This document shows, piece by piece, positions 927-53,155 of a DNA stretch of 64,000 nt. Location of the stretch: NCBI GenBank assembly GCA_946699065.1, contig CAMPDV010000019.1:1302001-1366000 (forward strand). The letters are read 5' to 3'. This DNA is from Loxodes magnus (lineage: Eukaryota > Ciliophora > Karyorelictea > Loxodida > Loxodidae). Within the stretch, counting starts at the first letter, position 1. Each line of letters begins with the position of its first letter. The position numbers were made by a program, and so were the translations under genes. The notes beneath the pieces were generated by a model. The model searched no databases. It was not told where the DNA came from and was given only the letters and a program-made list of their open reading frames with translations.

Positions 927-944
927 ATTTAATAAAGATGAAGT

Positions 945-9737: not shown

Positions 9738-9816
9738 ATGAAGCATTCTAACTTCTTATTCAATACTCCAGATAATACTGATAAACAACCTCTTTACTCT
9801 CTACAATATAAAGACT
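9738..9816 (+). pseudogene. 5' stub of the double-SGNH gene
   Basis: The first ~26 codons of the gene at 31040 (start codon and N-terminus nearly identical) are present here, then similarity stops abruptly after 9816. The body of the gene is missing from this paralogous block. Confidence 0.65.
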
Positions 9817-25503: not shown

Positions 25504-27228
25504 ATGAGTTACAGTCAAACCTTAAGCTTTTATATAAAGAGCGAAAGAGATATTAGGAATCTTAGTGACATTTCTTTAGAAATTAAAGACAATTAAGGAA
25601 GATGACACAAAATCTAAACCTCTTAATACAGTTAGATTTCCATTATCACTGTAATAGAAAATAATTATGTTCATGCGGGATTCATTGCGAAAAATAAATG
25701 GAACGTAGACAGAAAAATTTATAACTACATGCTGATTCACTGCTAACCCCAAAATAGTTAATTGTGCTTTCAAGTTAAATTTTATCAAGAATAGAACGAA
25801 TATGTTGAGTAATTTTAAAGAGTATTAGGAACTGGATAAGTTTGGTAATCTTAATATGAGACTTGCTCATGTTCATTAATTGTTTTATCGAAAATAGCTG
25901 AGCAAATTAGTGGCAACAATTTCGAAATACTAAAGATTGAAAATCTATTCAATTAAGAGGCTTTAAGTAGTAAAAACTTAAACTGTTTAAAATTCATCGT
26001 ATAAGTCTCAAATATAATCAACTATCCTTTTGATCTTTCAAAATGAATATAAAATATTTAAATGAAATAGTAGCAAACGCTTAAAAATAGTAATCTATAA
26101 AAAACTTATCTAGAAAGAGAAAACTAAAGCGATTATTACAATCGTTCGAATGAAAAATCCATTCAAAATTTTTAATTACAAGAGTCATTATGCAATAATC
26201 AATTTAACTCTAAGAAATAAACTAATAGCTTTCCGTATAATTAATCTGAATAAATACTAAACCATAATTATAATATCTAGCATATTCAAAAAAATAATAA
26301 ATTTTAATATTAGGAAAACTAAAATAATCATTAACAATAACTAGTTTTAATTGGAGACTCTACTATAGACAACATCGTATGGGTTAAGAAAGCTAAATGA
26401 TCTATACCCTCACTTATTAAAAATTCATTACCTTAACTTCAAATCATCAATTATGCTGCTGATGGTTTCACTAGTTAAGATGTTATAAATGGAAATAATC
26501 CTAAAATTTCTAAAAAGGTTCGAAGAAATTAAGGAGATCCCTTTCCTAACGAATCATTTTTCTAACCAATGATGGAACTTTTAAAATTGTAAAATGTTAA
26601 GTATATTCTACTAAGCATAGGTGGAAGTGATATTCGAGAAATTCTAGGAAGAATGGATTTTTTATAAGAAAGACTGAGATAATTTAAGTAAAACTATCTC
26701 TAAATTTTAATCTAATGCTATAAGAAAACTCCTTATCTAATTGTTATGTTATAGTATCGACCGAGCTTTTATGAAGATCAATACTATGGTGTATATAGAG
26801 CGATGGAGTAAATTCCTTTACCTGGAAATAGTATTGATAAAATAAACTATTTGATAGAAAATGCTTACAGCTAGTTTTTCGAAGAGTTCAGAAGAAAGAA
26901 AGTAGCGATAATAGATTTACCGAATTCCTTTGATATTTTCGATTCTGATTTATATATTTCTCAAATATAGCCTAGTTATAAAGGAGGATAAGTAATAACT
27001 AAGTTAGTATAATACGTAGTAAAGAACAATGATTTTAGTAAGTCAAAAGTTTACAGTCTTTCCAATATAAATGAAGATATTTGTGTAGAAGAAAATAAAG
27101 CTTCCTTTTATTGAAGAATCTAAAATTTTAATATAGATGAAACGAAGATTACTACTTAGGCTGAACTTTACGAGAGTATGAAGTAAAAAGTGGCAAATTC
27201 TAGCAATTAGATAAAAAGATAGTTCTGA
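25504..27228 (+). CDS. LRAT-like / SGNH fusion protein
   Basis: 574 aa, ATG 25504 to TGA 27226-27228, intact and colinear with the 12949 gene. The N-domain has His57, His79 and Asn160-Cys161; the linker is Gln/Asn-rich; the SGNH domain has block I Gly-Asp-Ser-Thr and block III Gly-Gly-Ser-Asp. Block V reads Ile-Gln-Pro-Ser-Tyr-Lys-Gly-Gly, with Gln (TAG) where most copies have Glu and where classical SGNH enzymes have His. The palindrome's left arm begins inside this gene at about 26335, just before block I; its mirror on the right is a gene with a different 5' half, so the arm boundary is a recombination point between SGNH sequences. Confidence 0.8.
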
Positions 27229-28255
27229 TAAACTTTTTTAGATTATGATTTAAATATTTTGAATTTTTTATTTTCTAGTTATTTTGCTGAAATAAAACTT
27301 TAATTTCTTGGTATAAGAAATTAAATTAAGAGAGAAGTAAAATGCAATTATTTTATTTAACTTTTAATATATATTTTTTTATAATTTTTAATTTTTATCT
27401 TTACTTTTAATCTTCTTTCGTTTTTTTTATTTGCTTTTATTTAAATCTTTAATCTGAGCGTCTTTTAAAAAATTATTTGATTACGACTGTGAAGATTCCG
27501 TCAGATTATAAATATGATTTACTTTGACTATAATATTAACAATGGCCCCTTTACCCTTTAGTTCTTTATAAATATTTTGTTTTCTTTTGTTATATTTATG
27601 ACTTCTATACTGAAAGTCATGCTTTTAAGTTTTATTTCTTTGGCAACAAACACGTCCTGGGTTATTTAATCCTTTTTTAATTTAAAAGCTGAATGAGCTA
27701 TTTCAAACCTACATCAAGTAATATTACTGTTTTTCTGTGAAGGTAGATTTGGAATAAATTAATCATAAATTTTATAATCTTAATAGGAGTAAAAATAAGA
27801 GAGGAATATCAATATTATTAGAGAGTATAAAGCATTATGAATATAAAACTAATAGGATTAATAATTAAAAGAACTTAAAAGAGAAAAATAAAAAAATATT
27901 TAATAAATAATAAGTTTGTAATTATTAAGGGATAAACTGAATATTTAAAATGCATGACTTTAAAGCATTGAAGGATCATAAAAAATGTTCATTTTTAATT
28001 TATGAATATTTATCTTTTTTATAAACTAAATAGACATATACTTTTTAAAATAATACTAACTTATTTTTTATTTATATGATATTTGGCATCTGCATTTATG
28101 TCTAACCAAATACTTCCAATAATAAATAATTTTAGCTTCCCATTAAGTTCATTTTTATTAACGTTGCTACTGTAAAAAGATTAATTTTTATAAATTTACA
28201 TTATTTTTGCTTGTTAAGTGCAAAGATTGATATAATGATCATTACAAAAAATTTA
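27229..28255. other. 3' flank of fusion gene
   Basis: Paralogous to 5566-6367 and 14674-15529 and mirrored at 50137-51166. No gene recognised. The element C insertion follows. Confidence 0.45.
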
Positions 28256-28653
28256 GATGTAAGCCACGGTCAAGAGAACCAGTAGATAATCTGGTGCAAT
28301 GTAAACTGCTTTTCGAGTAATCTCACACTAGAAGCCATCATAGGGAAGGGTGGACAAGCTCGGAAGAGACAAGTCTAACTTGACCGAGGGTTCTCGCTAG
28401 CAGTATAAAAGTTTGAATGACGGGCCTACTAATGATTTAATTAATAATTTTTATTTGGATCTTATCCAAGAAGACTGGAGTATTTGATTAAAGCCTCAAT
28501 AATAATTTTTAATAAGTAGATTCCCTATTTGGAGAAGCTGACGTGACACATTGGACGAATAGAATAAAATAAGAAATATGAAAACAGCTTTTTAATATTA
28601 AATATTAATATTGAAAGAACTGCGGGCCAAAGAGGTGCTTCGCGTTCTATAAT
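28256..28653 (+). mobile_element. Unclassified interspersed element C, copy 2
   Basis: 398 bp, starting GATGTAAGCC and ending GCGTTCTATAAT, with the 8-bp AAAATTTA on both sides (28248-28255, 28654-28661); in A+T-rich DNA that is only weak support for a target-site duplication. The paralogous sites at about 7440-7480 and 16165-16200 lack it. One extra base near 28516, compared with copies 1 and 3, breaks the protein-like frame. Confidence 0.55.
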
Positions 28654-30148
28654 AAAATTTATTTATTTACTAATATTTAATCCACATTTTTACCTTTTTT
28701 CCAAGATAATTTACAGAATGTTCCTCACATTTTCATATTCTTGAATCATAATTACTTTAAAGGTAAAAATTATATGCTATTAAATGTTTTGTTTAATTTT
28801 ACTTATAGAAAGTTAGATTATTTTGATATTCTCTTTAGTGTTTGTTAAATCAAGTTTTTGAGATTTCTAATTAAGCTGAATTATATAAAAACAACAAGAT
28901 CTAGTGCTTAGTTAATTTAATGATTATAAAGAGTCAAACTTTTTTTAATTAAATTAAAATGCAAATTTGTCTAGGTTGTTCGATCATTTATCTTCTGCTA
29001 ATTCGCATTAATAAATAGTTAAAGTATAAACACAAAATACTTTTACTCATGATAGTGTTCGTATAGTATAAGATTAATGAACTATGTCCAAAATACTAAA
29101 ATTGGTACTGTTTCTAAAAGGATCTATTTAATATTCTAGTCGACCTAATAAAAAATAAGATATTTTAACTTATGTAATTAAGAATGCCAGCAGCAAGTCC
29201 ATCAAATATTAGAAGCAATAATAAATAGTAACCTTTGCTGGAAATAAAAACTATTGAGAAGCTATACTCAAAGAGCAGAAGCAATTAGTTTCATTTTTAC
29301 ATCCAATTTAAATGGAAACTTTAAGTTGAAATACTTAAACACTATGAAGTAACTAAGAACTAAATAAAAATAAAAATAAAAATAGTGAGATAAATAAAAA
29401 TATAAGGTACTAAATTTTTCTCCAAATGTAAAAAATTAATAGAGATTTGAATAGAAGCAAGTTTGAAAATAAAATACAAGTTTATCAACTATAGCTTGAA
29501 AAACCATAGGAGATCAAACACACCTTTAAATCAAGAAGATTACTAAATGCTAACAATTTACAAGATAAGAATAAACAAATAATTTTAGGAAAGAAACGTT
29601 TACAAGCAGCATTTAAATCAAAATAGTTAAAAATTAATTGATTAAGTAAATCCTTTTAATAGCTAATAATTTAGATAATACTACAATGAGCATCATTTAA
29701 GTAACTGAAGATAATTATTCGGAATATTTGAAATAGTGAAATAATCTAAATTTTAAGAAAAGTAGAATGCAATAAAATTAAATATGTTAACCCAATTATA
29801 TTAGCAGCTATTTGTATTGTAACAATCTTAAAAAATTAAGAGATATATTAAAATTAATTGCTTAGCATAACTTACTTAATTGTAATAAGAGTCAATTTAC
29901 CTTTTAATAGATTTATTATATGAAACTATAAAAACATTTAAAAATTGTTAGTCCTTCATCACTCTAGTAAGACTGATAAATAAATAATATTAACTCTTTA
30001 GAAAAATAGATATATTTATAAGAATATATGCATATGCTCCCAAATATGAAACTGCTTTATGAAAGTCTTATTAGAAAATTATTAAGAATGAAGCACTTTT
30101 GATAATTAAAAACACTTTATAAGTTGAAATATTATAAAATGTTCTTCC
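28654..30148. other. Intergenic, paralogous to 7.47-8.82 kb
   Basis: Diverged from its paralogue up to about 29630, then almost identical to 8308 onwards. No gene recognised before the pseudogene at 30149. Confidence 0.5.
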
Positions 30149-30770
30149 TCAATCGAAATAAACATCTGCCAAATCTTCTGCTTCACTTTCTGTCCACTCT
30201 TCTCTTCCTTGTTGTTGTTTTATTAATTTTTAGTATTTCTATATCATTTGATTAAGCCATGTCTCAGGAATCTAGTAGTTAATTCTTTTTGTTGCCTTTT
30301 TAACAAATCTTATACAATTTACATGGAGATAGACATTGTAAAAGACTTGCAGTCGAATGGTTACCCACAAATAATTTTTGCAATTCCAGAACTAACTGAC
30401 AATGGAGAATAATTTATTTGATACTCAGTTTTGAATATTTCTGAGTCCGCTGCATATTTCCTAAGTTCAGCAAAGCATTAAAACTCATAATCGAAGAAGT
30501 GAACTCTAATTACTGCTAAACCATCTTTAGATAAACAGTGAGCTAACATGTAAGAATAAGATTTATTATCTACAGCCCATTAATTCTACACAATCATACC
30601 GATATGTCCGATTTTATTTCCTACTGCTCAGAAATGCTAATATTGCTGGCTTTAGAGACTTTGATTAATTTCCAAACTCCATCTAAATTCTTTATCTCTA
30701 AAGAATAAATAGATTCGTTTCTAAGATCGTCTGAACTCTTGATTTAAAAATATGGGTAATCAGTTTGCAT
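30149..30770 (-). pseudogene. N-domain-only gene, left-arm copy, broken
   Basis: ATG 30770 to TGA 30149-30151. It keeps the base that is missing in the 9360 copy, but lacks one base near 30627 and 19 bp near 30325 that remove residues just before the Asn-Cys motif. Both lesions are shared with the right-arm copy, so they predate the palindrome. Confidence 0.75.
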
Positions 30771-31039
30771 TGTTTTAGAATAATTTTTAGATATGTGCTT
30801 TTATATAAAATAATGATATAAGTTAAGTTTGAATAGAATTTTCAATATAACAGAATTAAATTAGCCATCATAGCATTCTATTACAATGAATCTATTTAAA
30901 AATGTTGGTTCTAATAAAGTATATTTGCCTTTAAATATAGTGAGTCTATTAAAGTATATTCATTCTATTAAGTATTCTGAAATCATCATTTATAACATAA
31001 ATTTATATAAAACCAACTTAACTTTCAACTTTAATAAAA

Positions 31040-33793
31040 ATGAGCCATTCTAACTTCTTATTCAATACTCCAGATAATACTGATAAACAACCTCTTTACT
31101 CTCTACAACCTAAAGACTTAAATCAAAATAAAAGATTAGTCAGAGCTATTAAACTATTTATCGAGAGTAATATTGGAAATGATATTGTTTACACTGGTCT
31201 GATTAAGAAAAATGAATGAAATATAGATGGAATAACTTATAACTATATGCTTGTTTACTATATCACCATCAATAAGAAAGTATACACTTAATTTCAATTT
31301 TATCAAGATGAGAAGGAATATATTAAGCATCTCTAGCAAATTTATGGATCTGGAAACTTATAGAAAGAAGAATTCATGCGAAGAAATAATCCAGAGTTCA
31401 ATTTATCTAGTAAGACAGATTTTACTAAAAGAAATAATAATGAAATTATAAAATTCTAAAAGAGATAAGAAATGAAAGAAAATAAAGAATAAAATTGCTA
31501 TACATTTGTAATATTTGTTACTTAGTTAGATAACTATCCATTTTCTCTTTTACAATAGAAAGAATAAATAATAAAGAAAATAAAAAAAGAAGATAAATAA
31601 AATAATACACCTTTACTATAAATAGAAAATAAAAAAACTAACTAAAACTACCAATTTAAATAATAAATTGAAATCACTTCAAAACTATAATAAAAAAATA
31701 ATAGTTTTATGATAAATAGCAAAACAAAAAAAACAAACAATTAATCTGAACAAATTATCGATTCTTTCTAATAGATTTCAAATGATAATCATAATACTAA
31801 CAATTAGTAATCTTTAAAATAATAAAACGAATATTAATAATAACTCGTTTTGATTGGAGACTCTACTATTGATAACATCGTATGAGTCAAATAAACTGAT
31901 TACTCTATTCCCTCTCTTATTAAAGATGCAGTACCTTTACTTCAAGTCGTCAATTATGCTGCTGATGGATTCACAAGTTAAGATGTTATAATTGGAAATA
32001 ATCCAGCTATTTCTAAAGTGGCTCGAAGAAATACAGGAGATCCCTTTCCTAATGAATCACTTTTCAAACCTATGATAGAACTTCAAAAATTGTAAAATGT
32101 TAAGTATATTCTACTAAGCATAGGTGGAAATGATATTCGAGAAATTCTAGGAAAAATGCATCTTTTATAAGAAAGACTGAGATAATTTAAGTAAAACTAT
32201 CTCTAAATTTTAAACTAATGCTATAAGAAAACTCCTAACTTAATTGTGATGTTATAGTATCGACCGAGCTTTTATGATGATCAATACTATGGTGTATATA
32301 GAGCGATGGAGTAAATTCCTTTACCTGGAAATAGTATTGATAAAATAAACTATTTGATAGAAAATGCTTACAGCTAGTTTTTCGAAGAGTTCAGAAGAAA
32401 GAAAGTATCAATAATAGATTTACCGAATTCCTTTGATATTTTCGATTCTGATTTGTATATTTCTCAAATAGAGCCTAGTTATAAAGGAGGGTAAATAATA
32501 ACTAAGTTAATATAATACGTAGTAAAGAACAATGATGATTTTAGTAAGTCAAAAGTTTACAGTCTTTCCAATTTAGATGAGAAAGTATAAGTAAGAGAAA
32601 ATAATTAGAATTTTGAGTGAAAAATAGAAAATTTCAACTAACAATAGAAAATATAACTTAAAGCTTCTTAAGCTTAATATGTTGACAGATTTTCAATTTA
32701 GTCTTCTTCATCTCCAGAGACTTAATAAAATCTATAAAACTCTAAGAAACATTAAAATATTACTCCTTTTGATAAATTAAAGTAAGTTTCCAATCCCATA
32801 TATCAGAACTCTTATGATAACCATAATACTAACAATTAGTAATCTTTAAAATAATAAAAAAATTATTAATAGAAATTCATTTTGATTGGAGACTCTACCA
32901 TTGATAACATCGTATGGGTTAAATAAGCTTAATTATCTATTTCCTCACTTATTAAAGATACAGTACCTTTACTTCAAGTCGTCAATTATGCTGCTGATGG
33001 ATTCACTAGTACAGATGTTATAAATGGAAATAATCCAGCTATTTCTAAAGTGGCTCGAAGAAATACAGGAGATCCCTTTCCTAACGAATCACTTTTCTAA
33101 CCATTGATAGAACTTCAAAAATTGTAAAATGTTAAGTATATTCTACTAAGCATAGGTGGAAATGATATTCGAGAAATTCTAGGAAAAATGCATCTTTTAT
33201 AAGAAAGACTGAGATAATTTAAGTAAAACTATCTCTAAATTTTAAACTAATGCTATAAGAAAACTCCTAACTTAATTGTGATGTTATAGTATCGACCGAG
33301 CTTTTATGACGATCAATACTATGGTGTATATAGAGCGATGGAGTAAATTCCTTTACCTGGAAATAGTATTGATAAAATAAACCATTGTATAGAAAATGCT
33401 TACAGCTAGTTTTTCGAAGAGTTCAGAAGAAAGAAAGTATCAATAATAGATTTACCGAATTCCTTTGATATTTTCGATTCTGATTTGTATATTTCTCAAA
33501 TAGAGCCTAGTTATAAAGGAGGGTAAATAATAACTAAGTTAATATAATACGTAGTAAAGAACAATGATGATTTTAGTAAGTCAAAAGTTTATAGTCTTTC
33601 CAATTTAGATGAAGATGTATAAGCAAGAGAAAATAATTAGAATTTTGAGTGAAAAATAGAAAACTTTAATGAAGACTTTACAAGGAATGGAATAAAACAA
33701 AAATAAATGGAATAAAGTTAAAGACATTCAAGCTAGAGCTATAATGAGAGACAAAAGGTAATCAAAACGTCAACTTATTTTTATAAACGATGA
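31040..33793 (+). CDS. Double-SGNH protein with degenerate N-domain
   Basis: One uninterrupted 917-codon frame, ATG 31040 to TGA 33791-33793, with dozens of TAA/TAG Gln codons. Residues 1-170 are a diverged N-domain in which both conserved His are Tyr (residues 51 and 73) while Asn-Cys (152-153) remains. SGNH domain 1 has Ser275 in Gly-Asp-Ser-Thr; SGNH domain 2 has Ser619. Both have Gly-Gly-Asn-Asp in block III and Glu-Pro-Ser-Tyr in block V. The linker before each SGNH domain repeats the words Asp-Asn-His-Asn-Thr-Asn-Asn-Gln-Gln, so the duplicated unit was linker plus SGNH. A perfect mirror gene lies in the right arm. Two SGNH domains in tandem with a dead thiol-type domain suggest binding or scaffolding rather than catalysis, but this is inference. 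Confidence 0.85.
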
Positions 33794-35606
33794 AAACATT
33801 TCTGATAAACTTTTAAAAATAAAAATTATATTTTTTAACATTTCTCAAAATCCATATTTTTGAATATATGCAAAGTTTTAAATTTTTTAATTTAATTTTC
33901 AGTTTTTTATTTTCAAGTACAAATCATTTAGTTTTTTTTGAGCTGCAAGATTCTTTTATTTTCTAAAGAGAGATATTGCAAATATTATACTATATTTAGC
34001 CTTAATTATATGAGTTTAAATATGTTCAACGAAAAAGCATGTAATATATCAGCAAATATCTTTCATCATATATTTGAGCATTCTGAGTAAAATTACCTTT
34101 GAAATAATTTTTAGCTTAGTTTTGAATTTAAATAAACTGAATCGGATATTGATTGTCGATTTAACAAAGAAATAACTTTTTAATTGATAAAAAAATATAT
34201 AGGATTTATCTTAATTTGCTTTCTTAATGTTTTTAGTCAGATGCATATTATAAAAACTTATGCTGCAATTTTATTATTAATAATTAGAATCAAAAATCTA
34301 AAATTTTACTTTTTTTCTCCTATCAAATGAAGGTTTATTTGCTTAAGATAGTTTCATAAGGTTTAAATATCATTCTTGCTTTAATTAATTTTTAGAAGAT
34401 ATTCCGTAAGTTTGGAGGATTATTATTTAATTTTACTTAATATCCTTCTTTTAGTCTTTTTGCTTTTTATTAAATAAAATTACTTAAAATTGTCCATACT
34501 ATTTATCCTTCTTATTATTTCTTTAAGATTACTTTTCTTTCCATGAATTTGCTTTTTTAAATACTGTTATTTACTTATTCTAAAAATGCCCAAATAATAA
34601 AGTGAAGCTCGAATGAATTGGTTTAAATATTATTAGTTTTAAGCCTTTTCTTTATAATGTTTTATTGCTAGTAATTGGATTTAAATTGTTAGCTTTAAAT
34701 AAAATTGTCTAAAGTAGTCTAGTGAGATAATTTATAACTGAATAGAGTTGCTAAAACTTTGAGATAGTGAAATACATAAAATTAGCTTTCTGCTTAGTAC
34801 TTTCTCATAAAAATAGTTAAAATATGGAGTTATCTTTTCGTCTCCCAAATAACTAAATTAAAAACTTAAGAAGAAAAGCGACAAAAGAAAATGAGAAAAA
34901 CAACAGCAACAAGAGTAATTTCTTCATCAGATAGAAAAATTATGTTCAACCGTAGGGTAGAGGAATCTAAGAAAGAAATTGATCAAAAGATCTAAAATAA
35001 ACGAAACCAATTGTAAAGATAAATCTAAAAGTATAAAGAATAATTTTCAATCAAGGAGAAAACTAATGACTTATATTTATGGACCAAAAAATGATTTAAA
35101 TGTTTTATTGTCAGCCATTCTAAAAAAGCTTAGTAACTGAATAGAATTTTTATAAGCAGATACAACCGATATTAGCCAAGAATAAAACATGATTATAGAA
35201 GCGATTTATTAATTTAATAGTTTATAAATGAAAAAAAGATAAAAAATATCATAAATTTACGAAATGCAATAGAAGGATTTTCCGTTTAGCAAAGGATTGG
35301 AAGAAAATAGAATATATTCAAATGAATGCATATGAAATGTAAAATAGTAAAAGAGACAGAAATTTAAAATAATAATAGGATAAAAATAATTAAAGAGTAA
35401 GTCATAGATAAAATGATTGAACTTATTGAAATAAACAGAATACTTACATAATCACTAAACAACGTTAAAAGTAATAATTATATGATTAAGTTCATATTTA
35501 CATATGATATATTGATGGAAACATATTCAAAATTAGTATTACATTTATTAACAGCATTAAATAAAGAAATAGTATAACTTTGTAAATAATGCTAATTTTA
35601 TAATTA
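33794..35606. other. Intergenic; possible small ORF
   Basis: A plus-strand frame at about 34800-35400 reads as a basic, Lys/Gln/Arg-rich helical peptide with only two TGA codons, but the paralogue at 10.4-10.8 kb does not keep the frame, so I do not call a gene. 35270-35390 is the patch shared with 10590-10730. Mirrored at 42795-44607. Confidence 0.3.
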
Positions 35607-35620
35607 ATTACTCTTTATAT
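35607..35620. repeat. Target-site duplication, left (element A)
   Basis: ATTACTCTTTATAT here and at 36544-36557 exactly bracket element A. The paralogous uninterrupted site at about 10878-10895 has a single diverged version. Confidence 0.85.
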
Positions 35621-36543
35621 AAATAGATAAAAATGGTTGAAGGTTTCAAGTCAGGCTTATATACCATCTCTTCCTAAGCCAAAAAGGAAGGGAAGAAGCA
35701 AGAAACAGAGTCTTAATAATCTTAACAATCTTCTCTATCACAACCTTAACCAACACTGAACTAACAACTTGGAATCTAACAAAACGAACGAAAGCCAAAG
35801 AATATACGAACAGAAACTCCAACCTCAAGCGAGAAACCGAGGAAACAGATGAAGTTTGTTCTCCACCAGGAGGTATCAGAATTCAACCCTTCTGGCCAGA
35901 TGAGCATGAAGTAACTCATCAAAATGGTACTGAACCTCCAGGATATGCTGATTGCAAAGCTTACCTAGCAGAAGGAATTGAGCCAAGACTTATGTCCTAG
36001 GAAAGAGATCTTAACGCCTTTTGGAATATCTCACAAAGTCAGACTAACGAATCCTAAAATTAGCTTTAGAAACAGACTGAACTGGATAACAGACTCGGAA
36101 AAGTAGAAGAAAAATTGTAAACTTTTAAGAAAGAGTAAAGCGAAACTGGAGCTATAAAAATGGAAATCGAAGCCTAGAAAGAGCAAACAAATCAAGGAAA
36201 ATAATTCAAAATAAAAAAGAAATGTTTCTGCTGTGGAGGCGTATGACATTTTTATCGGAAGTGTTAGAAATTCTAATAGAAATAAAGAAATTATTGGATA
36301 AAAGAACAACAAAAGAAGAAGCAAGAATGAAAAGAATGTATTGCAACCCGGATGGTTCAATATACAAGATTAAGATGGAACCAAGGCAAGTTAAAGGAGG
36401 GAAAGCCTGGAAAAATCCGAGTTCCCAATCTCGCTAAAATTGGGCGACCCGAACTTTTATATTTAACAGCAGGAAACATGAACTACTGTCTTCCTGACGG
36501 GGTTGGAAATCCCTAAAACGGAAAACTTAAAATTAATATTATT
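35621..36543 (+). mobile_element. Gag/ORF1-only retroelement, copy A (left arm)
   Basis: 923-bp element richer in G+C than its surroundings, flanked by 14-bp direct repeats, with a paralogous empty site near 10.88 kb. From ATG 35633 one frame encodes a basic, Gln/Ser-rich N-terminus of ~65 residues. From about 35830 a second frame (shifted by -1) continues with an acidic, coiled-coil-like region and a perfect zinc knuckle Cys-X2-Cys-X4-His-X4-Cys at 36223-36264, whose Trp is a TGA codon. This layout is that of retrotransposon gag/ORF1 proteins; no reverse transcriptase is present. The 3' end has three successive hairpins (36424-36444, 36470-36496, 36499-36513). The copy is non-autonomous. Confidence 0.78.
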
Positions 36544-36557
36544 ATTACTCTTTATAT
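36544..36557. repeat. Target-site duplication, right (element A)
   Basis: Second ATTACTCTTTATAT, directly after the 3' end of element A; the flank that follows aligns with 10890-11100. Confidence 0.85.
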
Positions 36558-37526
36558 TTATCAAATGATATCTCGTTGGTACAAAATAATTATTTTTGGT
36601 ATACTAAAAGTCAAAAAGAAATTTAAGTAAATAGAGTAAAAGAAAAAAGAGATTAATTTAAAGCATTTATAAGTAAAAAGGATATTTAATATAATAATTA
36701 AAATTCCATTTATAATCTAATTATTGCTTTAATATTTAATATATTAATATCATATCATCAACAAAATTAAACTACCATCATTTTTATCTTCTCATTATAC
36801 CTATTTGTCTTAGAGATATCTAGTTTCACGCGAGATCTTCAAGAGAAGCAGCTAAATTATTATCCTGCTTTTTAAAAGGTTTAATGTCTTTAAAAAATGG
36901 TATGTCAGTATTGTTCATATTGATCACTTTTTTTAGAAACTAATAAGCAGAATATTCTTTTAATATTTTTTAAGAGGATGTACAGAGGAAGCAGAAAAAT
37001 GGAAGCAAAGTTATCCTTAAATCTTCCGTTAACATATTTAGTAATCTTTGTTTGTAAAGTTTTGTATAATGAAAAAAAAGGAGCAATAAGAGTTGAGAAG
37101 CTTGCTATTTGTAAAAATTTGTATAATTTCATAGTTTAATAAATTGATAGCTTTAATTATTAATCTACTCTTTTCATATTTTATAAGATTTGTGACTTTG
37201 TAAACATTTTCATAGTATTTCGTTTATTATTGAATAGATTTTTAAATAAAAATTGAATAGTTACATGAAAGAGGTACATTAGTATATGTAATATTATAAA
37301 AAGATATAAATAAAGAATTAAAATTTTAAAGCTTAGAATAGAACAAAAAATTAGTCTCTCATAAATTTAAATACTAAATTAAGAATTACTATAAAGCAGA
37401 AGATTTAAAATCTAAGTAATGACACCAAAATTATATTAGGATTATTAAATTAAATAAAAATTATGAAAATTAAAAAATCTCATAATTAAATCTTAAAATG
37501 TTTAATAGAAAAATTTTCATTATTTA
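36558..37526. other. Intergenic
   Basis: A+T-rich. A 75-codon frame free of all three stop codons lies on the minus strand at 36905-37132 (mirrored at 41269-41496), without Gln-type TAA/TAG codons or any family resemblance; I do not call it a gene. Confidence 0.35.
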
Positions 37527-40874: not shown

Positions 40875-41843
40875 TAAATAATGAAAATTTTTCTATTAAA
40901 CATTTTAAGATTTAATTATGAGATTTTTTAATTTTCATAATTTTTATTTAATTTAATAATCCTAATATAATTTTGGTGTCATTACTTAGATTTTAAATCT
41001 TCTGCTTTATAGTAATTCTTAATTTAGTATTTAAATTTATGAGAGACTAATTTTTTGTTCTATTCTAAGCTTTAAAATTTTAATTCTTTATTTATATCTT
41101 TTTATAATATTACATATACTAATGTACCTCTTTCATGTAACTATTCAATTTTTATTTAAAAATCTATTCAATAATAAACGAAATACTATGAAAATGTTTA
41201 CAAAGTCACAAATCTTATAAAATATGAAAAGAGTAGATTAATAATTAAAGCTATCAATTTATTAAACTATGAAATTATACAAATTTTTACAAATAGCAAG
41301 CTTCTCAACTCTTATTGCTCCTTTTTTTTCATTATACAAAACTTTACAAACAAAGATTACTAAATATGTTAACGGAAGATTTAAGGATAACTTTGCTTCC
41401 ATTTTTCTGCTTCCTCTGTACATCCTCTTAAAAAATATTAAAAGAATATTCTGCTTATTAGTTTCTAAAAAAAGTGATCAATATGAACAATACTGACATA
41501 CCATTTTTTAAAGACATTAAACCTTTTAAAAAGCAGGATAATAATTTAGCTGCTTCTCTTGAAGATCTCGCGTGAAACTAGATATCTCTAAGACAAATAG
41601 GTATAATGAGAAGATAAAAATGATGGTAGTTTAATTTTGTTGATGATATGATATTAATATATTAAATATTAAAGCAATAATTAGATTATAAATGGAATTT
41701 TAATTATTATATTAAATATCCTTTTTACTTATAAATGCTTTAAATTAATCTCTTTTTTCTTTTACTCTATTTACTTAAATTTCTTTTTGACTTTTAGTAT
41801 ACCAAAAATAATTATTTTGTACCAACGAGATATCATTTGATAA
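40875..41843. other. Intergenic, mirror of 36558-37526
   Basis: Essentially identical to the left-arm counterpart in inverse orientation; no gene called. Confidence 0.35.
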
Positions 41844-42794
41844 ATATAAAGAGTAATAATAATATTAATTTTAAGTTTTCCGTTTTAGGGATTTCCAACC
41901 CCGTCAGGAAGACAGTAGTTCATGTTTCCTGCTGTTAAATATAAAAGTTCGGGTCGCCCAATTTTAGCGAGATTGGGAACTCGGATTTTTCCAGGCTTTC
42001 CCTCCTTTAACTTGCCTTGGTTCCATCTTAATCTTGTATATTGAACCATCCGGGTTGCAATACATTCTTTTCATTCTTGCTTCTTCTTTTGTTGTTCTTT
42101 TATCCAATAATTTCTTTATTTCTATTAGAATTTCTAACACTTCCGATAAAAATGTCATACGCCTCCACAGCAGAAACATTTCTTTTTTATTTTGAATTAT
42201 TTTCCTTGATTTGTTTGCTCTTTCTAGGCTTCGATTTCCATTTTTATAGCTCCAGTTTCGCTTTACTCTTTCTTAAAAGTTTACAATTTTTCTTCTACTT
42301 TTCCGAGTCTGTTATCCAGTTCAGTCTGTTTCTAAAGCTAATTTTAGGATTCATTAGTCTGACTTTGTGAGATATTCCAAAAGGCGTTAAGATCTCTTTC
42401 CTAGGACATAAGTCTTGGCTCAATTCCTTCTGCTAGGTAAGCTTTGCAATCAGCATATCCTGGAGGTTCAGTACCATTTTGATGAGTTACTTCATGCTCA
42501 TCTGGCCAGAAGGGTTGAATTCTGATACCTCCTGGTGGAGAACAAACTTCATCTGTTTCCTCGGTTTCTCGCTTGAGGTTGGAGTTTCTGTTCGTATATT
42601 CTTTGGCTTTCGTTCGTTTTGTTAGATTCCAAGTTGTTAGTTCAGTGTTGGTTAAGGTTGTGATAGAGAAGATTGTTAAGATTATTAAGACTCTGTTTCT
42701 TGCTTCTTCCCTTCCTTTTTGGCTTAGGAAGAGATGGTATATAAGCCTGACTTGAAACCTTCAACCATTTTTATCTATTTATATAAAGAGTAAT
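41844..42794 (-). mobile_element. Gag/ORF1-only retroelement, copy A (right arm) with its duplications
   Basis: Mirror of 35607-36557: element 41858-42780 with 14-bp repeats at 41844-41857 and 42781-42794. It differs from the left-arm copy by a substitution near 42350 and little else. Because the same insertion with the same target site is in both arms, the element inserted before the inverted duplication. Confidence 0.78.
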
Positions 42795-44607
42795 TAATTA
42801 TAAAATTAGCATTATTTACAAAGTTATACTATTTCTTTATTTAATGCTGTTAATAAATGTAATACTAATTTTGAATATGTTTCCATCAATATATCATATG
42901 TAAATATGAACTTAATCATATAATTATTACTTTTAACGTTGTTTAGTGATTATGTAAGTATTCTGTTTATTTCAATAAGTTCAATCATTTTATCTATGAC
43001 TTACTCTTTAATTATTTTTATCCTATTATTATTTTAAATTTCTGTCTCTTTTACTATTTTACATTTCATATGCATTCATTTGAATATATTCTATTTTCTT
43101 CCAATCCTTTGCTAAACGGAAAATCCTTCTATTGCATTTCGTAAATTTATGATATTTTTTATCTTTTTTTCATTTATAAACTATTAAATTAATAAATCGC
43201 TTCTATAATCATGTTTTATTCTTGGCTAATATCGGTTGTATCTGCTTATAAAAATTCTATTCAGTTACTAAGCTTTTTTAGAATGGCTGACAATAAAACA
43301 TTTAAATCATTTTTTGGTCCATAAATATAAGTCATTAGTTTTCTCCTTGATTGAAAATTATTCTTTATACTTTTAGATTTATCTTTACAATTGGTTTCGT
43401 TTATTTTAGATCTTTTGATCAATTTCTTTCTTAGATTCCTCTACCCTACGGTTGAACATAATTTTTCTATCTGATGAAGAAATTACTCTTGTTGCTGTTG
43501 TTTTTCTCATTTTCTTTTGTCGCTTTTCTTCTTAAGTTTTTAATTTAGTTATTTGGGAGACGAAAAGATAACTCCATATTTTAACTATTTTTATGAGAAA
43601 GTACTAAGCAGAAAGCTAATTTTATGTATTTCACTATCTCAAAGTTTTAGCAACTCTATTCAGTTATAAATTATCTCACTAGACTACTTTAGACAATTTT
43701 ATTTAAAGCTAACAATTTAAATCCAATTACTAGCAATAAAACATTATAAAGAAAAGGCTTAAAACTAATAATATTTAAACCAATTCATTCGAGCTTCACT
43801 TTATTATTTGGGCATTTTTAGAATAAGTAAATAACAGTATTTAAAAAAGCAAATTCATGGAAAGAAAAGTAATCTTAAAGAAATAATAAGAAGGATAAAT
43901 AGTATGGACAATTTTAAGTAATTTTATTTAATAAAAAGCAAAAAGACTAAAAGAAGGATATTAAGTAAAATTAAATAATAATCCTCCAAACTTACGGAAT
44001 ATCTTCTAAAAATTAATTAAAGCAAGAATGATATTTAAACCTTATGAAACTATCTTAAGCAAATAAACCTTCATTTGATAGGAGAAAAAAAGTAAAATTT
44101 TAGATTTTTGATTCTAATTATTAATAATAAAATTGCAGCATAAGTTTTTATAATATGCATCTGACTAAAAACATTAAGAAAGCAAATTAAGATAAATCCT
44201 ATATATTTTTTTATCAATTAAAAAGTTATTTCTTTGTTAAATCGACAATCAATATCCGATTCAGTTTATTTAAATTCAAAACTAAGCTAAAAATTATTTC
44301 AAAGGTAATTTTACTCAGAATGCTCAAATATATGATGAAAGATATTTGCTGATATATTACATGCTTTTTCGTTGAACATATTTAAACTCATATAATTAAG
44401 GCTAAATATAGTATAATATTTGCAATATCTCTCTTTAGAAAATAAAAGAATCTTGCAGCTCAAAAAAAACTAAATGATTTGTACTTGAAAATAAAAAACT
44501 GAAAATTAAATTAAAAAATTTAAAACTTTGCATATATTCAAAAATATGGATTTTGAGAAATGTTAAAAAATATAATTTTTATTTTTAAAAGTTTATCAGA
44601 AATGTTT
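42795..44607. other. Intergenic, mirror of 33794-35606
   Basis: Same content as the left arm; no gene called. Confidence 0.3.
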
Positions 44608-47361
44608 TCATCGTTTATAAAAATAAGTTGACGTTTTGATTACCTTTTGTCTCTCATTATAGCTCTAGCTTGAATGTCTTTAACTTTATTCCATTTATTT
44701 TTGTTTTATTCCATTCCTTGTAAAGTCTTCATTAAAGTTTTCTATTTTTCACTCAAAATTCTAATTATTTTCTCTTGCTTATACATCTTCATCTAAATTG
44801 GAAAGACTATAAACTTTTGACTTACTAAAATCATCATTGTTCTTTACTACGTATTATATTAACTTAGTTATTATTTACCCTCCTTTATAACTAGGCTCTA
44901 TTTGAGAAATATACAAATCAGAATCGAAAATATCAAAGGAATTCGGTAAATCTATTATTGATACTTTCTTTCTTCTGAACTCTTCGAAAAACTAGCTGTA
45001 AGCATTTTCTATACAATGGTTTATTTTATCAATACTATTTCCAGGTAAAGGAATTTACTCCATCGCTCTATATACACCATAGTATTGATCGTCATAAAAG
45101 CTCGGTCGATACTATAACATCACAATTAAGTTAGGAGTTTTCTTATAGCATTAGTTTAAAATTTAGAGATAGTTTTACTTAAATTATCTCAGTCTTTCTT
45201 ATAAAAGATGCATTTTTCCTAGAATTTCTCGAATATCATTTCCACCTATGCTTAGTAGAATATACTTAACATTTTACAATTTTTGAAGTTCTATCAATGG
45301 TTAGAAAAGTGATTCGTTAGGAAAGGGATCTCCTGTATTTCTTCGAGCCACTTTAGAAATAGCTGGATTATTTCCATTTATAACATCTGTACTAGTGAAT
45401 CCATCAGCAGCATAATTGACGACTTGAAGTAAAGGTACTGTATCTTTAATAAGTGAGGAAATAGATAATTAAGCTTATTTAACCCATACGATGTTATCAA
45501 TGGTAGAGTCTCCAATCAAAATGAATTTCTATTAATAATTTTTTTATTATTTTAAAGATTACTAATTGTTAGTATTATGGTTATCATAAGAGTTCTGATA
45601 TATGGGATTGGAAACTTACTTTAATTTATCAAAAGGAGTAATATTTTAATGTTTCTTAGAGTTTTATAGATTTTATTAAGTCTCTGGAGATGAAGAAGAC
45701 TAAATTGAAAATCTGTCAACATATTAAGCTTAAGAAGCTTTAAGTTATATTTTCTATTGTTAGTTGAAATTTTCTATTTTTCACTCAAAATTCTAATTAT
45801 TTTCTCTTACTTATACTTTCTCATCTAAATTGGAAAGACTGTAAACTTTTGACTTACTAAAATCATCATTGTTCTTTACTACGTATTATATTAACTTAGT
45901 TATTATTTACCCTCCTTTATAACTAGGCTCTATTTGAGAAATATACAAATCAGAATCGAAAATATCAAAGGAATTCGGTAAATCTATTATTGCTACTTTC
46001 TTTCTTCTGAACTCTTCGAAAAACTAGCTGTAAGCATTTTCTATCAAATTGTTTATTTTATCAATACTATTTCCAGGTAAAGAAATTTACTCCATCGCTC
46101 TATATACACCATAGTATTAGTCATCTTTAAAGCTCGGTCGATATTATAACATTGTAATTAGATAAGGAGTTTTCTTATAGCATTAGTTTAAAATTTAGAG
46201 ATAGTTTTACTTAAATTATCTCAGTCTTTCTTATAGAAGATGCATTCTTCCTAGAATTTCTCGAATATCATTTCCACCTATGCTTAGTAGAATATACTTA
46301 ACATTTTACAATTTTTGAAGTTCTATCATAGGTTTGAAAAGTGATTCATTAGGAAAGGGATCTCCTGTATTTCTTCGAGCCACTTTAGAAATAGCTGGAT
46401 TATTTCCAATTATAACATCTTAACTTGTGAATCCATCAGCAGCATAATTGACGACTTGAAGTAAAGGTACTGCATCTTTAATAAGAGAGGGAATAGAGTA
46501 ATCAGTTTATTTGACTCATACGATGTTATCAATAGTAGAGTCTCCAATCAAAACGAGTTATTATTAATATTCGTTTTATTATTTTAAAGATTACTAATTG
46601 TTAGTATTATGATTATCATTTGAAATCTATTAGAAAGAATCGATAATTTGTTCAGATTAATTGTTTGTTTTTTTTGTTTTGCTATTTATCATAAAACTAT
46701 TATTTTTTTATTATAGTTTTGAAGTGATTTCAATTTATTATTTAAATTGGTAGTTTTAGTTAGTTTTTTTATTTTCTATTTATAGTAAAGGTGTATTATT
46801 TTATTTATCTTCTTTTTTTATTTTCTTTATTATTTATTCTTTCTATTGTAAAAGAGAAAATGGATAGTTATCTAACTAAGTAACAAATATTACAAATGTA
46901 TAGCAATTTTATTCTTTATTTTCTTTCATTTCTTATCTCTTTTAGAATTTTATAATTTCATTATTATTTCTTTTAGTAAAATCTGTCTTACTAGATAAAT
47001 TGAACTCTGGATTATTTCTTCGCATGAATTCTTCTTTCTATAAGTTTCCAGATCCATAAATTTGCTAGAGATGCTTAATATATTCCTTCTCATCTTGATA
47101 AAATTGAAATTAAGTGTATACTTTCTTATTGATGGTGATATAGTAAACAAGCATATAGTTATAAGTTATTCCATCTATATTTCATTCATTTTTCTTAATC
47201 AGACCAGTGTAAACAATATCATTTCCAATATTACTCTCGATAAATAGTTTAATAGCTCTGACTAATCTTTTATTTTGATTTAAGTCTTTAGGTTGTAGAG
47301 AGTAAAGAGGTTGTTTATCAGTATTATCTGGAGTATTGAATAAGAAGTTAGAATGGCTCAT
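44608..47361 (-). CDS. Double-SGNH protein, right-arm copy
   Basis: 917-codon mirror of the 31040 gene (ATG 47361, TGA 44608-44610), same domain order, same Tyr replacements in the N-domain, intact frame. SGNH domain 1 carries a ~0.3-kb tract (about 45980-46320) identical or nearly so to the central gene and unlike its arm partner, changing several residues (for example Tyr to Lys next to Asp-Asp in the Ser-Phe-Lys/Tyr-Asp-Asp segment). The tract keeps length and frame, as expected for gene conversion. Confidence 0.85.
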
Positions 47362-47630
47362 TTTTATTAAAGTTGAAAGTTAAGTTGGTTTTATATAAAT
47401 TTATGTTATAAATGATGATTTCAGAATACTTAATAGAATGAATATACTTTAATAGACTCACTATATTTAAAGGCAAATATACTTTATTAGAACCAACATT
47501 TTTAAATAGATTCATTGTAATAGAATGCTATGATGGCTAATTTAATTCTGTTATATTGAAAATTCTATTCAAACTTAACTTATATCATTATTTTATATAA
47601 AAGCACATATCTAAAAATTATTCTAAAACA

Positions 47631-48252
47631 ATGCAAACTGATTACCCATATTTTTAAATCAAGAGTTCAGACGATCTTAGAAACGAATCTATTTATTCTT
47701 TAGAGATAAAGAATTTAGATGGAGTTTGGAAATTAATCAAAGTCTCTAAAGCCAGCAATATTAGCATTTCTGAGCAGTAGGAAATAAAATCGGACATATC
47801 GGTATGATTGTGTAGAATTAATGGGCTGTAGATAATAAATCTTATTCTTACATGTTAGCTCACTGTTTATCTAAAGATGGTTTAGCAGTAATTAGAGTTC
47901 ACTTCTTCGATTATGAGTTTTAATGCTTTGCTGAACTTAGGAAATATGCAGCGGACTCAGAAATATTCAAAACTGAGTATCAAATAAATTATTCTCCATT
48001 GTCAGTTAGTTCTGGAATTGCAAAAATTATTTGTGGGTAACCATTCGACTGCAAGTCTTTTACAATGTCTATCTCCATGTAAATTGTATAAGATTTGTTA
48101 AAAAGGCAACAAAAAGAATTAACTACTAGATTCCTGAGACATGGCTTAATCAAATGATATAGAAATACTAAAAATTAATAAAACAACAACAAGGAAGAGA
48201 AGAGTGGACAGAAAGTGAAGCAGAAGATTTGGCAGATGTTTATTTCGATTGA
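47631..48252 (+). pseudogene. N-domain-only gene, right-arm copy, broken
   Basis: Mirror of 30149-30770, with the same 1-bp and 19-bp deletions. At about 48478-48486 (just downstream) it shares bases with the 8600 copy rather than with its arm partner at 29912-29921, so the sequence history here is mosaic. Confidence 0.75.
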
Positions 48253-49738
48253 GGAAGAACATTTTATAATATTTCAACTTATAAAGTGTTTTTAATTATC
48301 AAAAGTGCTTCATTCTTAATAATTTTCTAATAAGACTTTCATAAAGCAGTTTCATATTTGGGAGCATATGCATATATTCTTATAAATATATCTATTTTTC
48401 TAAAGAGTTAATATTATTTATTTATCAGTCTTACTAGAGTGATGAAGGACTAACAATTTTTAAATGTTTTTATAGTTTGATATAAGAAATCTATTAAAAG
48501 GTAAATTGACTCTTAGTACAATTAAGTAAGTTATGCTAAGCAATTAATTTTAATATATCTCTTAATTTTTTAAGATTGTTACAATACAAATAGCTGCTAA
48601 TATGTTTCCTAATATAATTGGGTTAACATACTTAATTTTATTACATTCTACTTTTCTTAAAATTTAGATTATTTCACTATTTCAAATATTCCGAATAATT
48701 ATCTTCAGTTACTTAAATGATGCTCATTGTAGTATTATCTAAATTATTAGCTATTAAAAGGATTTACTTAATCAATTAATTTTTAACTATTTTAGATTTA
48801 AATGCTGCTTGTAAATGTTTCTTTCCTAAAATTATTTGTTTATTCTTATCTTGTAAATTGTTAGCATTTAGTAATCTTCTTTATTTAAAGGTGTGTTTGA
48901 TTTCCTATGGTTTTTATAAGCTATAGTTGATAAACTTGTATTTTATTTTCAAATTTGCTTCTATTCGAATCTCTATTAATTTTTTACATTTGGAGAGAAA
49001 TTTAGTACCTTATATTTTTATTTATCTCACTATTACATTTTTATTTAGTTCTTAGTTACTTCATAGCGTTTAAGTATTTCAACTTAAAGTTTCCATTTAA
49101 ATTGGATGTAAAAATGAAACTAATTGTTTCTGCTCTTTGAGTATAGCTTCTCAATAGTTTTTTATTTCCAGCAAAGGTTACTATTTATTATTGCTTCTAA
49201 TATTTGATGGACTTGCTGCTGGCATTCTTAATTACATAAGTTAAAATATCTTATTTTTTATTAGATCGACTAGAATATTAAATAGATCCTTTGAGAAACA
49301 GTACCAATTTTAGTATTTTGGACATAGTTCATTAATCTTATACTATACGAACACTATCCTGAGTAAAAGTATTTTGTGTTTATACTTTAACTATTTATTA
49401 ATGCGAATTAGCAGAAGATAAATGATCGAACAACCTAGACAAATTTGCATTTTAATTTAATAAAAAGAAATTTGACTCTTTATAATCATTAAATTAATTA
49501 AGCACTAGATCTTGTTGTTTTATATAATTCAGCTTAATTAGAAGTCTCAAAAACTTGATTTAGCAAACACTAAAGAGAATATCAGAATAATCTAACTTTC
49601 TATAAGTAAAATTAAACAAAACATTTAATAGCATATAATTTTTACCTTTAAAGTAAATATGATTCAAGAATATGAAAATGTGAGGAACATTCTGTAAATT
49701 ATCTTGGTGGATTAAGTATTAGTAAATAAATAAATTTT
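48253..49738. other. Intergenic, mirror of 28654-30148
   Basis: Same content as the left arm with more substitutions outward; no gene called. Confidence 0.4.
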
Positions 49739-50136
49739 ATTATAGAACGTGAAGCACCTCTTTGGTTCGCAGCTCTTTCAATATTAATATTTAATATTAA
49801 AAAAGCTGTTTTCATATTTCTTATTTTATTCTATTCGTCCAATGAGTCACGTTAGCTTCTCCAAAGGGAAATCTACTTATAAAAAATTATTATTGAGGCT
49901 TTAATCAAATACTCCAGTCTTCTTGAATAAGATCCAAATAAAAATTATTAATTAAATCATTAGTAGGCCCGTCATTCAAACTTTTATACTGCTAGCGAGA
50001 ACCCTCGGTCAAGTTAGACTTGTCTCTTCCGAGCTTATCAACCATTCCCTATGATGGCTTCTAGTGTGAGATTACTCGAAAAGCAGTTTACACTGCACCA
50101 GATTATCTACTGGTTCTCTTGACCGTGACTTACATC
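49739..50136 (-). mobile_element. Unclassified interspersed element C, copy 3
   Basis: Mirror of copy 2 (28256-28653), about 95% alike by eye. It lacks the extra base that breaks the frame of copy 2, so the protein-like frame (Arg-Phe-Pro-Phe-Gly-Glu-Ala; Thr-His-Trp-Thr) stays open here as in copy 1. Confidence 0.55.
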
Positions 50137-51166
50137 CAAATTTGTTGTAATGATCATTATATCAATCTTTGTACTTAACAAGGAAAAATAATGTAAATTT
50201 AGAAAATTAATCTTTTTACAGTAGCAACTTTAATAAAAATGAACTTAATGGGAAGCCAAAATTATTTATTATTGGAAGTATTTGGTTAGACATAAATGGA
50301 GATGCTAAATATCATATAAATAAAAAATAAGTTAGTATTATTTTGAAAAGTATATGTCTATTTAGTTTATAAAAAAGATAAATATTCATAAATTAAAAAT
50401 GAACATTTTTTATGATCCTTCAATGTTTTAAAGTCATGCATTTTAAATACTCAGTTTATCCCTTAATAATTACAAACTTAATATTTATTAAATATTTTTC
50501 TCTTTTAAGTTCTTTTAATTATTAATCCTATTAGTTTTATATTCATAATGCTTTATACTCTCTAATAATATTGATATTCCTCTCTTATTTTTACTCCTAT
50601 TAAGATTATAAAATTTATGATTAATTTAATCCAAATCTACCTTCACAGAAAAACAGTAATATTACATTATGCAGCTTTGAAATAACTCATTCAGCTTTTA
50701 AAATTAAAAAGGATTAAATAGCCCATACGTGTTTGTTGCCAAAGAAATAAAACTTAAAAGCATGACATTTCAGTATAGAAGTCATAATTATAACAAAAGA
50801 AAACAAAATATTTATAAAGAACTAAAGGGTAAAGAGGCCATTGTTCATATAATAGTCAAAGTAAATCATATTTATAATCTGACGGAATCTTCACAGTCGT
50901 AATCAAATAATTTTAAAAAGACGCTCAGATTAAAGATTTAAATAAAAGCGAAAAAAAAAACGAAAAAAGATTAAAAGTAAAGATAAAAATTAAAGATTCT
51001 GATAAAATATATATTAAAAGTCAAATAAAATAATTGCATTTTACTTCTCTCTTAATTTAATTTCTTATACCAAGAAATTAAAGTTTTATTTCAACAAAAT
51101 AACTAGAAAATAAAAAAATCAAAATTTTAAATTGTAATCTAAAAAAAGTTTATTTAAAAAAGTTTA
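50137..51166. other. Intergenic, mirror of 27229-28255
   Basis: Diverged mirror of the left-arm flank; no gene recognised. Confidence 0.4.
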
Positions 51167-53155
51167 TCAGAACTATCTTTTTATCTAATTTCTAGAATTT
51201 GCCACTTCTTACTTCATACTCTCGTAAAGTTCAGATTAAGTAGTAATCTTCGTTTCCTCTATATTAAAATTTTAGATACTTCAATAAAAGGAAGCTTTAT
51301 TTTCTTTTACACAAATTTACTCATTTATATTAGAAAGACTATAAACTTTTGACTTACTAAAATCATTGTTCTTTACTACGTATTATACTAACTTAGTTAT
51401 TATTTAGCCTCCTTTATAACTAGGCTATATTTGAGAAATATATAAATCAGAATCGAAAATATCAAAGGAATTCGATAAATCTATTATTGATACTTTCTTT
51501 CTTCTGAACTCTTCGAAAAACTAGCTGTAAGCATTTTCTATCAAATAGTTTATTTTATCAATACTATTTCCAGGTAAAGGAATTTACTCCATCGCTCTAT
51601 ATACACCATAGTATTGATCATCATAAAAGCTCGGTCGATATTATAACATAACAATTAGATAAGGAGTTTTCTTATAGCATTAGTTTAAAATTTAGAGATA
51701 GTTTTACTTAAATTATCTCAGTCTTTCTTATAAAAGATGCATTCTTCCTAGAATTTCTCGAATATCATTTCCACCTATGCTTAGTAGAATATACTTAACA
51801 TTTTACAATTTTTAAAGTTCCATCATTGGTTAGAAAAATGATTCGTCAGGAAAGGGATCTCCTTAATTTCTTCGAACCTTTTTAGAAATAGTAGGATTAT
51901 TTCCATTTATAACATCTGTACTAGTGAATCCATCAGCAGCATAATTGATGATTTGAAGTTAAGGTAATTAATTTTTAATAAGTTAGGGTATAGATCATTT
52001 AGCTTTCTTAACCCATACAATGTTATCAATAGTTGTGTCTCCAATCAAAACGAGTTATTATTAATAATTATTTTATTATTTTAAAGATTACTAATTGTTA
52101 GTATTATGGTTATCATAAGAGTTCTAATAGATGGGATTGGAAACTTACATTAATTTATTAAAAGGAGTAATATTTTAATGTTTCTTAGAGTTTTATAGAT
52201 TTTATTAAGTCTCTGGAGATGAAGAAGTTTAAATTGAAAATCTGTCAACATATTATGCTTAAGAAACTTTAAGTTATATTTTCTATTGTTAGTTGAAATT
52301 TTCAATTCTTCATTAAAAGGTAGCCTTATTTTCTTTTACACAAACATCTTCATTTATATTGGAAAGACTGTAAACTTTTGACTTACTAAAATCATTATTC
52401 TATACTACGTACTATACTAACTTAGTTATTACCTATCCTCCTTTATAGCTCGGTTCTATTTGAGAAATATACAAATCTCGATCGAAAATATCAAAGGAAT
52501 TAGGTAAATCGATTATTGCCACTTTCTTTCTTCTGAACTCTTCGAAAAACTCACTGTAAAAACTTTCTATCAAGTAGTTTATTTTATCAACACTATTTCC
52601 ACCTAAGGGAATTTATTCCATCACTCTATACACACCATAACATTAGTCATCATAGAAGCTTGGACGATACTATAACATCACAATCAGGTTAGGAGTTTTC
52701 TTATAGCATTAGTTTAAAATTTAGAGATAGTTTTGCTTAAATTACCTCAATCTTTAAGGTAGAAGATGCATTCTTCCTAGAATTTCTCGAATATCATTTC
52801 CACCTATGCTTAGTAGAATATACTTTACACTTTACAGCTTTTAAAGCTCCATTAAGGGTTAGAAAAAGGATTCGTCAGGAAAGGGTTCTCCTTAATTTCT
52901 TCGAGCCTTTTTAGAAATGCTAGGATTATTTCCATTTATAACATCTGTACTTGTGAATCCATCTGCAGCGTAATTGATAACTTAGAGTAAAGGTAATGAA
53001 TCTCTAATAAGTGAGGGAATAGATTAATCAGTTTATTTGACTCATACGATGTTATCAATAGTTGTGTCTCCAATCAAAACGAGTTATTATCGAAGATAAG
53101 TTTTTTAGATCAGGTACATGGCATTTTTAGGATTTAAAGTTTTAGAGGTTTCCAT
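51167..53155 (-). CDS. Double-SGNH protein without N-domain, Ser-to-Thr in block I
   Basis: 662 aa, ATG 53155 to TGA 51167-51169, one intact frame. A short unrelated N-terminus of ~20 residues leads straight into SGNH domain 1 (53090-52300), then a linker resembling that of the 31040 gene, then SGNH domain 2 (52060-51180). In both domains block I reads Gly-Asp-Thr-Thr-Ile-Asp: the nucleophile Ser codon TCT is ACA, a two-base change. Block III is Gly-Gly-Asn-Asp; block V is Glu-Pro-Ser-Tyr in domain 1 and Gln-Pro-Ser-Tyr in domain 2. The missing Ser and His imply no classical esterase activity. A downstream in-frame ATG at about 53119 is an alternative start. The palindrome ends inside this gene. 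Confidence 0.78.

Follow-up and report, generated by a model that had tools for sequence, protein, structure and literature searches.

Palindromic duplications are known to form by several routes. Fold-back priming, described in yeast and mammalian cells, starts from a pre-existing short inverted repeat: a resected DNA end folds at the repeat and its 3' end primes the copying of an arm (PMC7999016). Origin-dependent inverted-repeat amplification (ODIRA), described at yeast SUL1, uses a template switch at short interrupted inverted repeats followed by integration through homologous recombination, and the yeast cases involve repeats of 2-14 bp with arms no more than about 100 bp apart (PMC10766183). 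In the ciliate Tetrahymena the palindrome of ribosomal DNA (rDNA), about 21 kb long, needs short inverted repeats, which are identical 42-bp sequences 28 bp apart (PMC5182062). Here we describe a palindrome from another ciliate, Loxodes magnus. It lies in a stretch of 64,000 nucleotides (the window), which corresponds to positions 1302001-1366000 of contig CAMPDV010000019.1 (C19; 1,596,109 bases) in a genome of 705,730,643 bases in 7843 contigs. The structure is a chromosomal inverted duplication within a single-locus cluster of genes for SGNH-like proteins. A limited literature search found no mention of the locus, which is not proof that none exists.

Comparison of the window with itself by blastn confirmed the inverted repeat. 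The left arm (26287-38795, forward strand) matches the right arm (39606-52108, reverse) with 98.2% identity over 12541 aligned columns and 17 gap openings. Between them is a spacer of 810 bp (38796-39605), which occurs once in the palindrome and carries on the forward strand the first part of a gene, c', including its ATG at 39138. The repeat is real in the sequence and far beyond chance. An earlier note, made from the sequence alone, had described arms of 12.5 kb whose paired positions sum to 78401; the arm length is borne out, and the innermost pair, 38795 and 39606, gives exactly this sum. The note had placed the repeat at 26335-52066, where it does lie, with outer ends 48 and 42 bp away from those found by blastn. 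As assembled, the palindrome is in the interior of its 1.6-Mb contig, at least 0.24 Mb from both ends.

The centre of the palindrome can be compared with other copies of the same sequence. The spacer is present in six places, and the five outside the palindrome are all on C19. To the left of the spacer all five share one common flank (60 bp and more were compared), where the palindrome has the inverted arm. This flank carries a 19-bp word that matches 18 bp of the inverted arm with two mismatches and one gap, the inner ends of this imperfect inverted match being 810 bp apart. The palindrome switches strand at the inner end of the 19-bp word, inside the short match, and keeps the spacer loop once. 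In the window the junction occupies 38778-38795 (forward), with arm up to 38795 followed by spacer, and the partner word is at 39606-39623 (reverse) within the coding frame of gene c'. The flank word is found in all five other spacer copies. Four of these also carry an identical partner word; in the fifth (C19:1195031-1196354) both the partner word and the arm have diverged. One copy of the spacer and inner arm end in the flank form occupies 1-1287 (reverse) and runs off the left edge of the window. The partner word sits in the reading frame of gene c, and the left copy of this gene is cut at the short repeat, so that 37527-38795 (reverse) holds a gene c that has lost its first part (frame compared with c' and other copies, coordinates from the mirror of c'). 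In one unrearranged copy (C19:1249000-1255000) only 3 of 200,000 random anchored position pairs scored as high as this match, a figure to be read with the few bases of slack at the junction, which by our estimate may make the true chance about ten times larger.

The two arms fall into two parts. The inner part of the left arm (29923-38795, forward; mirror 39606-48478) differs from its mirror at 19 positions, 16 of them within 255 bp (32154-32408) and the rest at 36048, 38667 and 38668. The outer part (26287-29922, forward; mirror about 48479-52108) has diverged. Between 26336 and 30021 the arms differ in 191 alignment columns, gaps included, and the mismatch per window of 500 columns is 2.6 to 5.2% over 26561-29534 and 1.2% in 29535-30021. 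A near-identical centre with diverged outer ends had been noted previously, and the pattern holds, although it is two-tier rather than gradual (19 against 191 differences).

A third copy of the arm, in direct orientation, is found at C19:1238584-1251112. It differs from the arm by 0-6% in most windows and by 9-28% in about the outermost kilobase. Among the 191 differing outer columns it matches the left arm at 94, the right arm at 93 and neither arm at 4, while the inner arms share an identity against it that is private to them. The cluster of 16 inner differences is a gene-conversion patch of 255 bp in gene b' of the right arm (45993-46247, reverse). Over the 281 bp around it 280 bases equal the copies of genes c and c', which makes the donor identifiable, and 265 equal its own mirror; the patch is in one arm only. 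Between copies in the flank form the divergence reaches about 5% over 5 kb, and the inner arms differ at just 19 positions, so the flank form looks older. Likewise, near-identity inside and divergence of mostly 3-5% outside 29922 show the inside of the arms to be younger than the outside. The young inside would be either a fresh 8.9-kb fold-back joined to older diverged copies or the product of conversion between the arms, a process that could also explain the near-identity of these 8.9 kb.

We consider that the palindrome probably arose by fold-back at the short inverted repeat, inside the SGNH-like cluster. The starting form would have been that of the five other spacer copies, with the flank and its 19-bp repeat, the 810-bp spacer, the inverted partner in gene c and the remaining arm. 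A DNA end near the spacer would fold back, allowing the two short repeats to pair, and synthesis would then make an inverted copy of the arm. This would leave the spacer as a single-copy loop, remove the old flank and deprive the new, left gene c of its first part. Homologous exchange with other cluster copies, close to 29922 and at the SGNH repeat of the outer ends, would be the simplest way of rejoining to the chromosome. The two forms, the junction within the short repeat, the two-tier divergence and the conversion patch are seen in the sequence itself; that an end broke, folded back and was rejoined, and which form came first, we infer.

The locus resembles fold-back priming (PMC7999016) in having a short inverted repeat in the unrearranged form, a strand switch inside that repeat and a single loop; it differs in that the repeat is imperfect, its halves are 810 bp apart and the product is inside a chromosome. 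Fold-back leads one to expect arms that are equal from the centre outward, which is nearly so here for 8.9 kb, followed by divergence of mostly 3-5%. By the spacing rule this is not an ODIRA event: ODIRA repeats mark both ends of the amplified segment and lie within about 100 bp (PMC10766183), against 810 bp here. One short-repeat junction was found, at the centre, and the SGNH gene repeat is where the palindrome has its outer ends. The Tetrahymena rDNA palindrome also belongs to a ciliate, but it is programmed and forms a separate chromosome (PMC5182062), whereas this one is in the interior of a contig. Segmental duplications and the palindromes of Y chromosomes likewise have inverted arms that carry genes and recombine within the chromosome (PMC7999016), although here the setting is a single-locus, one-family cluster in a ciliate, with two-tier divergence. 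The event would thus be of a known kind at an unusual locus, working like fold-back priming with a long loop.

Several points weigh against this interpretation. The direction of change is argued from parsimony. Repeats in the known cases are closer together, whereas here an imperfect short match encloses a loop of 810 bp. Gene conversion in the cluster blurs ages: across the 1324 bp of spacer and inner arm end, four of the five other copies show 98-100% identity and the fifth 86%. In addition, the inverted pair at C19:1292360-1297484 and 1301133-1306257, the sole other pair whose coordinates were compared, has its inner ends about 190 bp past SGNH domains and not at this junction. Finally, the assembly used an overlap identity threshold of 96% at about 20-30x coverage, and its authors suspect misassembly of low-complexity repeats (PMC11441545), so copies that are 98% alike could have been joined wrongly.

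This last point favours an assembly or library artefact, in which a fold-back read or a wrong path through near-identical copies brought together two distant parts of the cluster. The inner arms are almost identical, and a short repeat that folded back in vitro would yield the same type of junction. We nevertheless regard an artefact as unlikely. The outer arms differ mostly by 3-5% and join different flanks, the inner arms have their private identity against the third copy, and the conversion patch with its known donor is in one arm only. A fold-back of the adapter type should have nearly no spacer. The genome report also describes calling of N6-methyladenine from PacBio subreads of sorted DNA (PMC11441545), which implies native, unamplified DNA and weakens the suggestion in the earlier note of a foldback chimera from amplification.

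A somewhat less probable explanation is an old inverted pair that arose by ordinary recombination between inverted gene copies, with conversion later rewriting the centre and the short repeat having no causal part. The region has 26 inverted and 36 direct pairs of at least 2 kb (overlapping pairs counted apart), and the near-equal agreement of the third copy with each outer arm is in keeping with such an origin. However, the centre lies at a short repeat outside the SGNH repeat, a position that homology of gene size leaves unexplained and that the chance test makes improbable as a coincidence.

A programmed macronuclear rearrangement of the Tetrahymena rDNA type is very improbable: the host is a ciliate and the 706-Mbp assembly is of macronuclear DNA, but the genome report (PMC11441545) describes no canonical germline-limited or eliminated segments, no extensive DNA editing, equivalent germline and somatic genomes and rDNA in chromosomal tandem arrays, the site is well inside its contig, and outer arms as diverged as these would not be expected of a freshly made product. 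Since that report gives no extensive DNA editing, a macronuclear product, one of three origins proposed in the earlier note, becomes unlikely. A somatic variant is possible, and a germline duplication fits best of the three.

The cluster spans about 190 kb (C19:1164001-1355500), 95% of which is covered by self-matches of at least 300 bp, compared with 1% and 4% of its flanks of 32 and 40.5 kb. As a small control, a single 40-kb stretch of another contig (C43) had no self-match of at least 150 bp. Genome-wide searches took in the palindrome centre, the repeated sequence named element A and the SGNH-like gene, leaving out most of 33680-37630, and their counts are lower bounds. For the centre, all 90 matches were on one contig. 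Element A, which had been reported as common to both arms, was indeed found in them at 29622-31125 and 47276-48795, and also at 8301-9823; all 18 of its matches in the genome are on C19, between 1179855 and 1350791, so it behaves as a piece of the local duplication and not as a genome-wide transposon. A single SGNH domain gave 54 matches: the cluster accounts for 53, and the remaining match is on C43, with 54% identity. A transposable element, for which dispersed copies are expected, was rejected as an explanation on these three counts. The view that an already complex locus was duplicated is supported.

Relative to the arm, the third copy has about 1032 bp less in gene b and about 1029 bp more in gene c, which is one repeat unit in each case. 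Such differences in domain number match what unequal exchange between repeats would give. Elsewhere in the cluster, positions 1-22514 of the window make up the greater part of a 23-kb copy, in direct orientation and with 98.3% identity, of C19:1194366-1217586, and C19:1268831-1288686 is a tandem array with a period of 5847 bp and four units, each with one SGNH-like domain.

The repeated gene encodes an SGNH/GDSL-like protein. Gene b (31040-33793, forward; code 27 model) encodes two SGNH-like domains in a single frame, with a UGA codon linking them, and it matches the Pfam family Lipase_GDSL_2 in two stretches with 40.9 bits, above the curated cut-off of 32.9. Its mirror, gene b', is at 44608-47361 (reverse; the ATG was checked and the other coordinate is from the mirror). 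Gene c' (39138-40874, forward) is a complete copy by the code 27 model, its first part lying in the spacer. Gene a (25504-27228, forward; code 27 model) extends across the left arm's outer end and was assigned to the family by tblastn, having no Pfam match of its own at an E-value of 0.05. The gene a' region (51287-53158, reverse, putative start) has two SGNH-like domains in one frame and crosses the outer end of the right arm. The outer ends of the arms fall shortly before an SGNH domain in both cases, that of gene a on the left and the second one of a' on the right.

Of ten SGNH sequences eight were kept, two broken copies being left out. Most aligned copies have the GDS and GGND motifs, and the place where His is expected from the motif scheme of the family reads E or Q. 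The tested single-domain copies were below the Pfam cut-off or without a match. A profile of the domain compared with solved structures gave two matches with E-values of about 0.7, which are not meaningful. Of three pairs of the 850-1030-bp unit that were compared, two show the third-position excess of coding sequence; the other pair, which holds a decayed copy at 16719, shows none. A reading of the 850-bp unit as a transposon or long terminal repeat was discarded, the unit being a protein-coding domain confined to one contig but for one relative. Tlr elements of Tetrahymena were also considered and set aside. That relative, on C43 (C43:487001-489800, local positions 1000-1989), is the only one found outside the cluster. 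Its GDSL-like domain scores 24.5 bits over a cut-off of 23.6 and is followed by an in-frame UGA and then by a UBA domain resembling those of ubiquilins.

Little else was recognised in the window. Apart from Ku80, none of 19 open reading frames matched Pfam at the curated cut-off, and when all six frames of 24.7-39.6 kb were scanned against Pfam, reading UGA as Trp and at an E-value of 0.01, the GDSL domain in gene b was the sole match. The window had no match to RNA families, no tRNA and no open reading frame of at least 150 amino acids in the standard code. The longest stretch listed for the window without UAA, UAG or UGA has 119 codons (35641-36000, mirror 42401-42760) and had no Pfam match above the cut-off.

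Loxodes magnus uses genetic code 27 (PMC11441545), in which UAR is Gln and UGA is Trp or stop. One motif position of the SGNH-like family reads UGA in 22 of 38 copies and UGG in the other 16. UGA evidently means Trp within these genes, and some of the in-frame stops that appear under code 6 are Trp codons. The Ku80 gene that adjoins the cluster (56196-58109, reverse, continuing below 56196) shows the same effect: with UGA read as Trp, the match to its C-terminal domain extends from profile positions 1-48 to 1-119 of 120. A fragment at 22509-23297 has about 80% identity with part of this gene and lacks codon-position bias, and is a decayed copy.

The linker codon, which joins the SGNH domain to the next segment, reads UGA in every one of 42 copies, representing 24 distinct sequences (32618-32620 in the window and 41 other places in C19:1168000-1356000), whereas other Trp codons of the family are mixed, with UGA:UGG ratios of 22:16, 6:5 and 2:12. 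In both the two-domain genes and an array of eight domains in one frame (C19:1187162-1195360, reverse, 1195360-1187162) an in-frame UGA follows each domain. The last seven units of this array are 1032 bp long (344 codons) and about 99.9% identical. In gene b no in-frame ATG precedes the GDS motif of the second copy, short introns left aside. The two domains paired at 1265-1267 kb do not share a frame.

Codon changes were compared between copies. In first domains 39 of 81 and 56 of 109 were synonymous. The second domain of gene b gave 15/37, 11/35 and 14/51 in three comparisons and other second domains 17/54 in a fourth; the second domain at 1170061 gave 5/18 against 1266617 and 17/78 against 1224264. 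In linkers, which had no length-changing gap in three comparisons, the figures were 1/11, 4/14 and 6/15. The lower synonymous share downstream of the linker makes the second domains look less constrained than the first. The constancy of the linker UGA while other Trp codons mix suggests that it may be kept as a dual stop/sense switch. We put forward, tentatively, the possibility that, where UGA acts as a stop only close to the end of the message, tandem duplication of the 3' part of a gene turns the old UGA stop into Trp and makes the protein longer in one step, the linker UGA being kept as a switch and duplication at this locus, by fold-back as well, driving the growth of the protein. The arrays are putative long proteins.

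The locus is likely to record a fold-back duplication in a ciliate chromosome whose scar can be read directly, the unrearranged form surviving in five neighbouring copies. Fold-back at a short match is a known accident that is able to help gene clusters grow, and here a single site holds dozens of copies of one amplified gene family. Should the in-frame arrays be translated, an ambiguous stop codon would provide a direct route from gene duplication to longer proteins.

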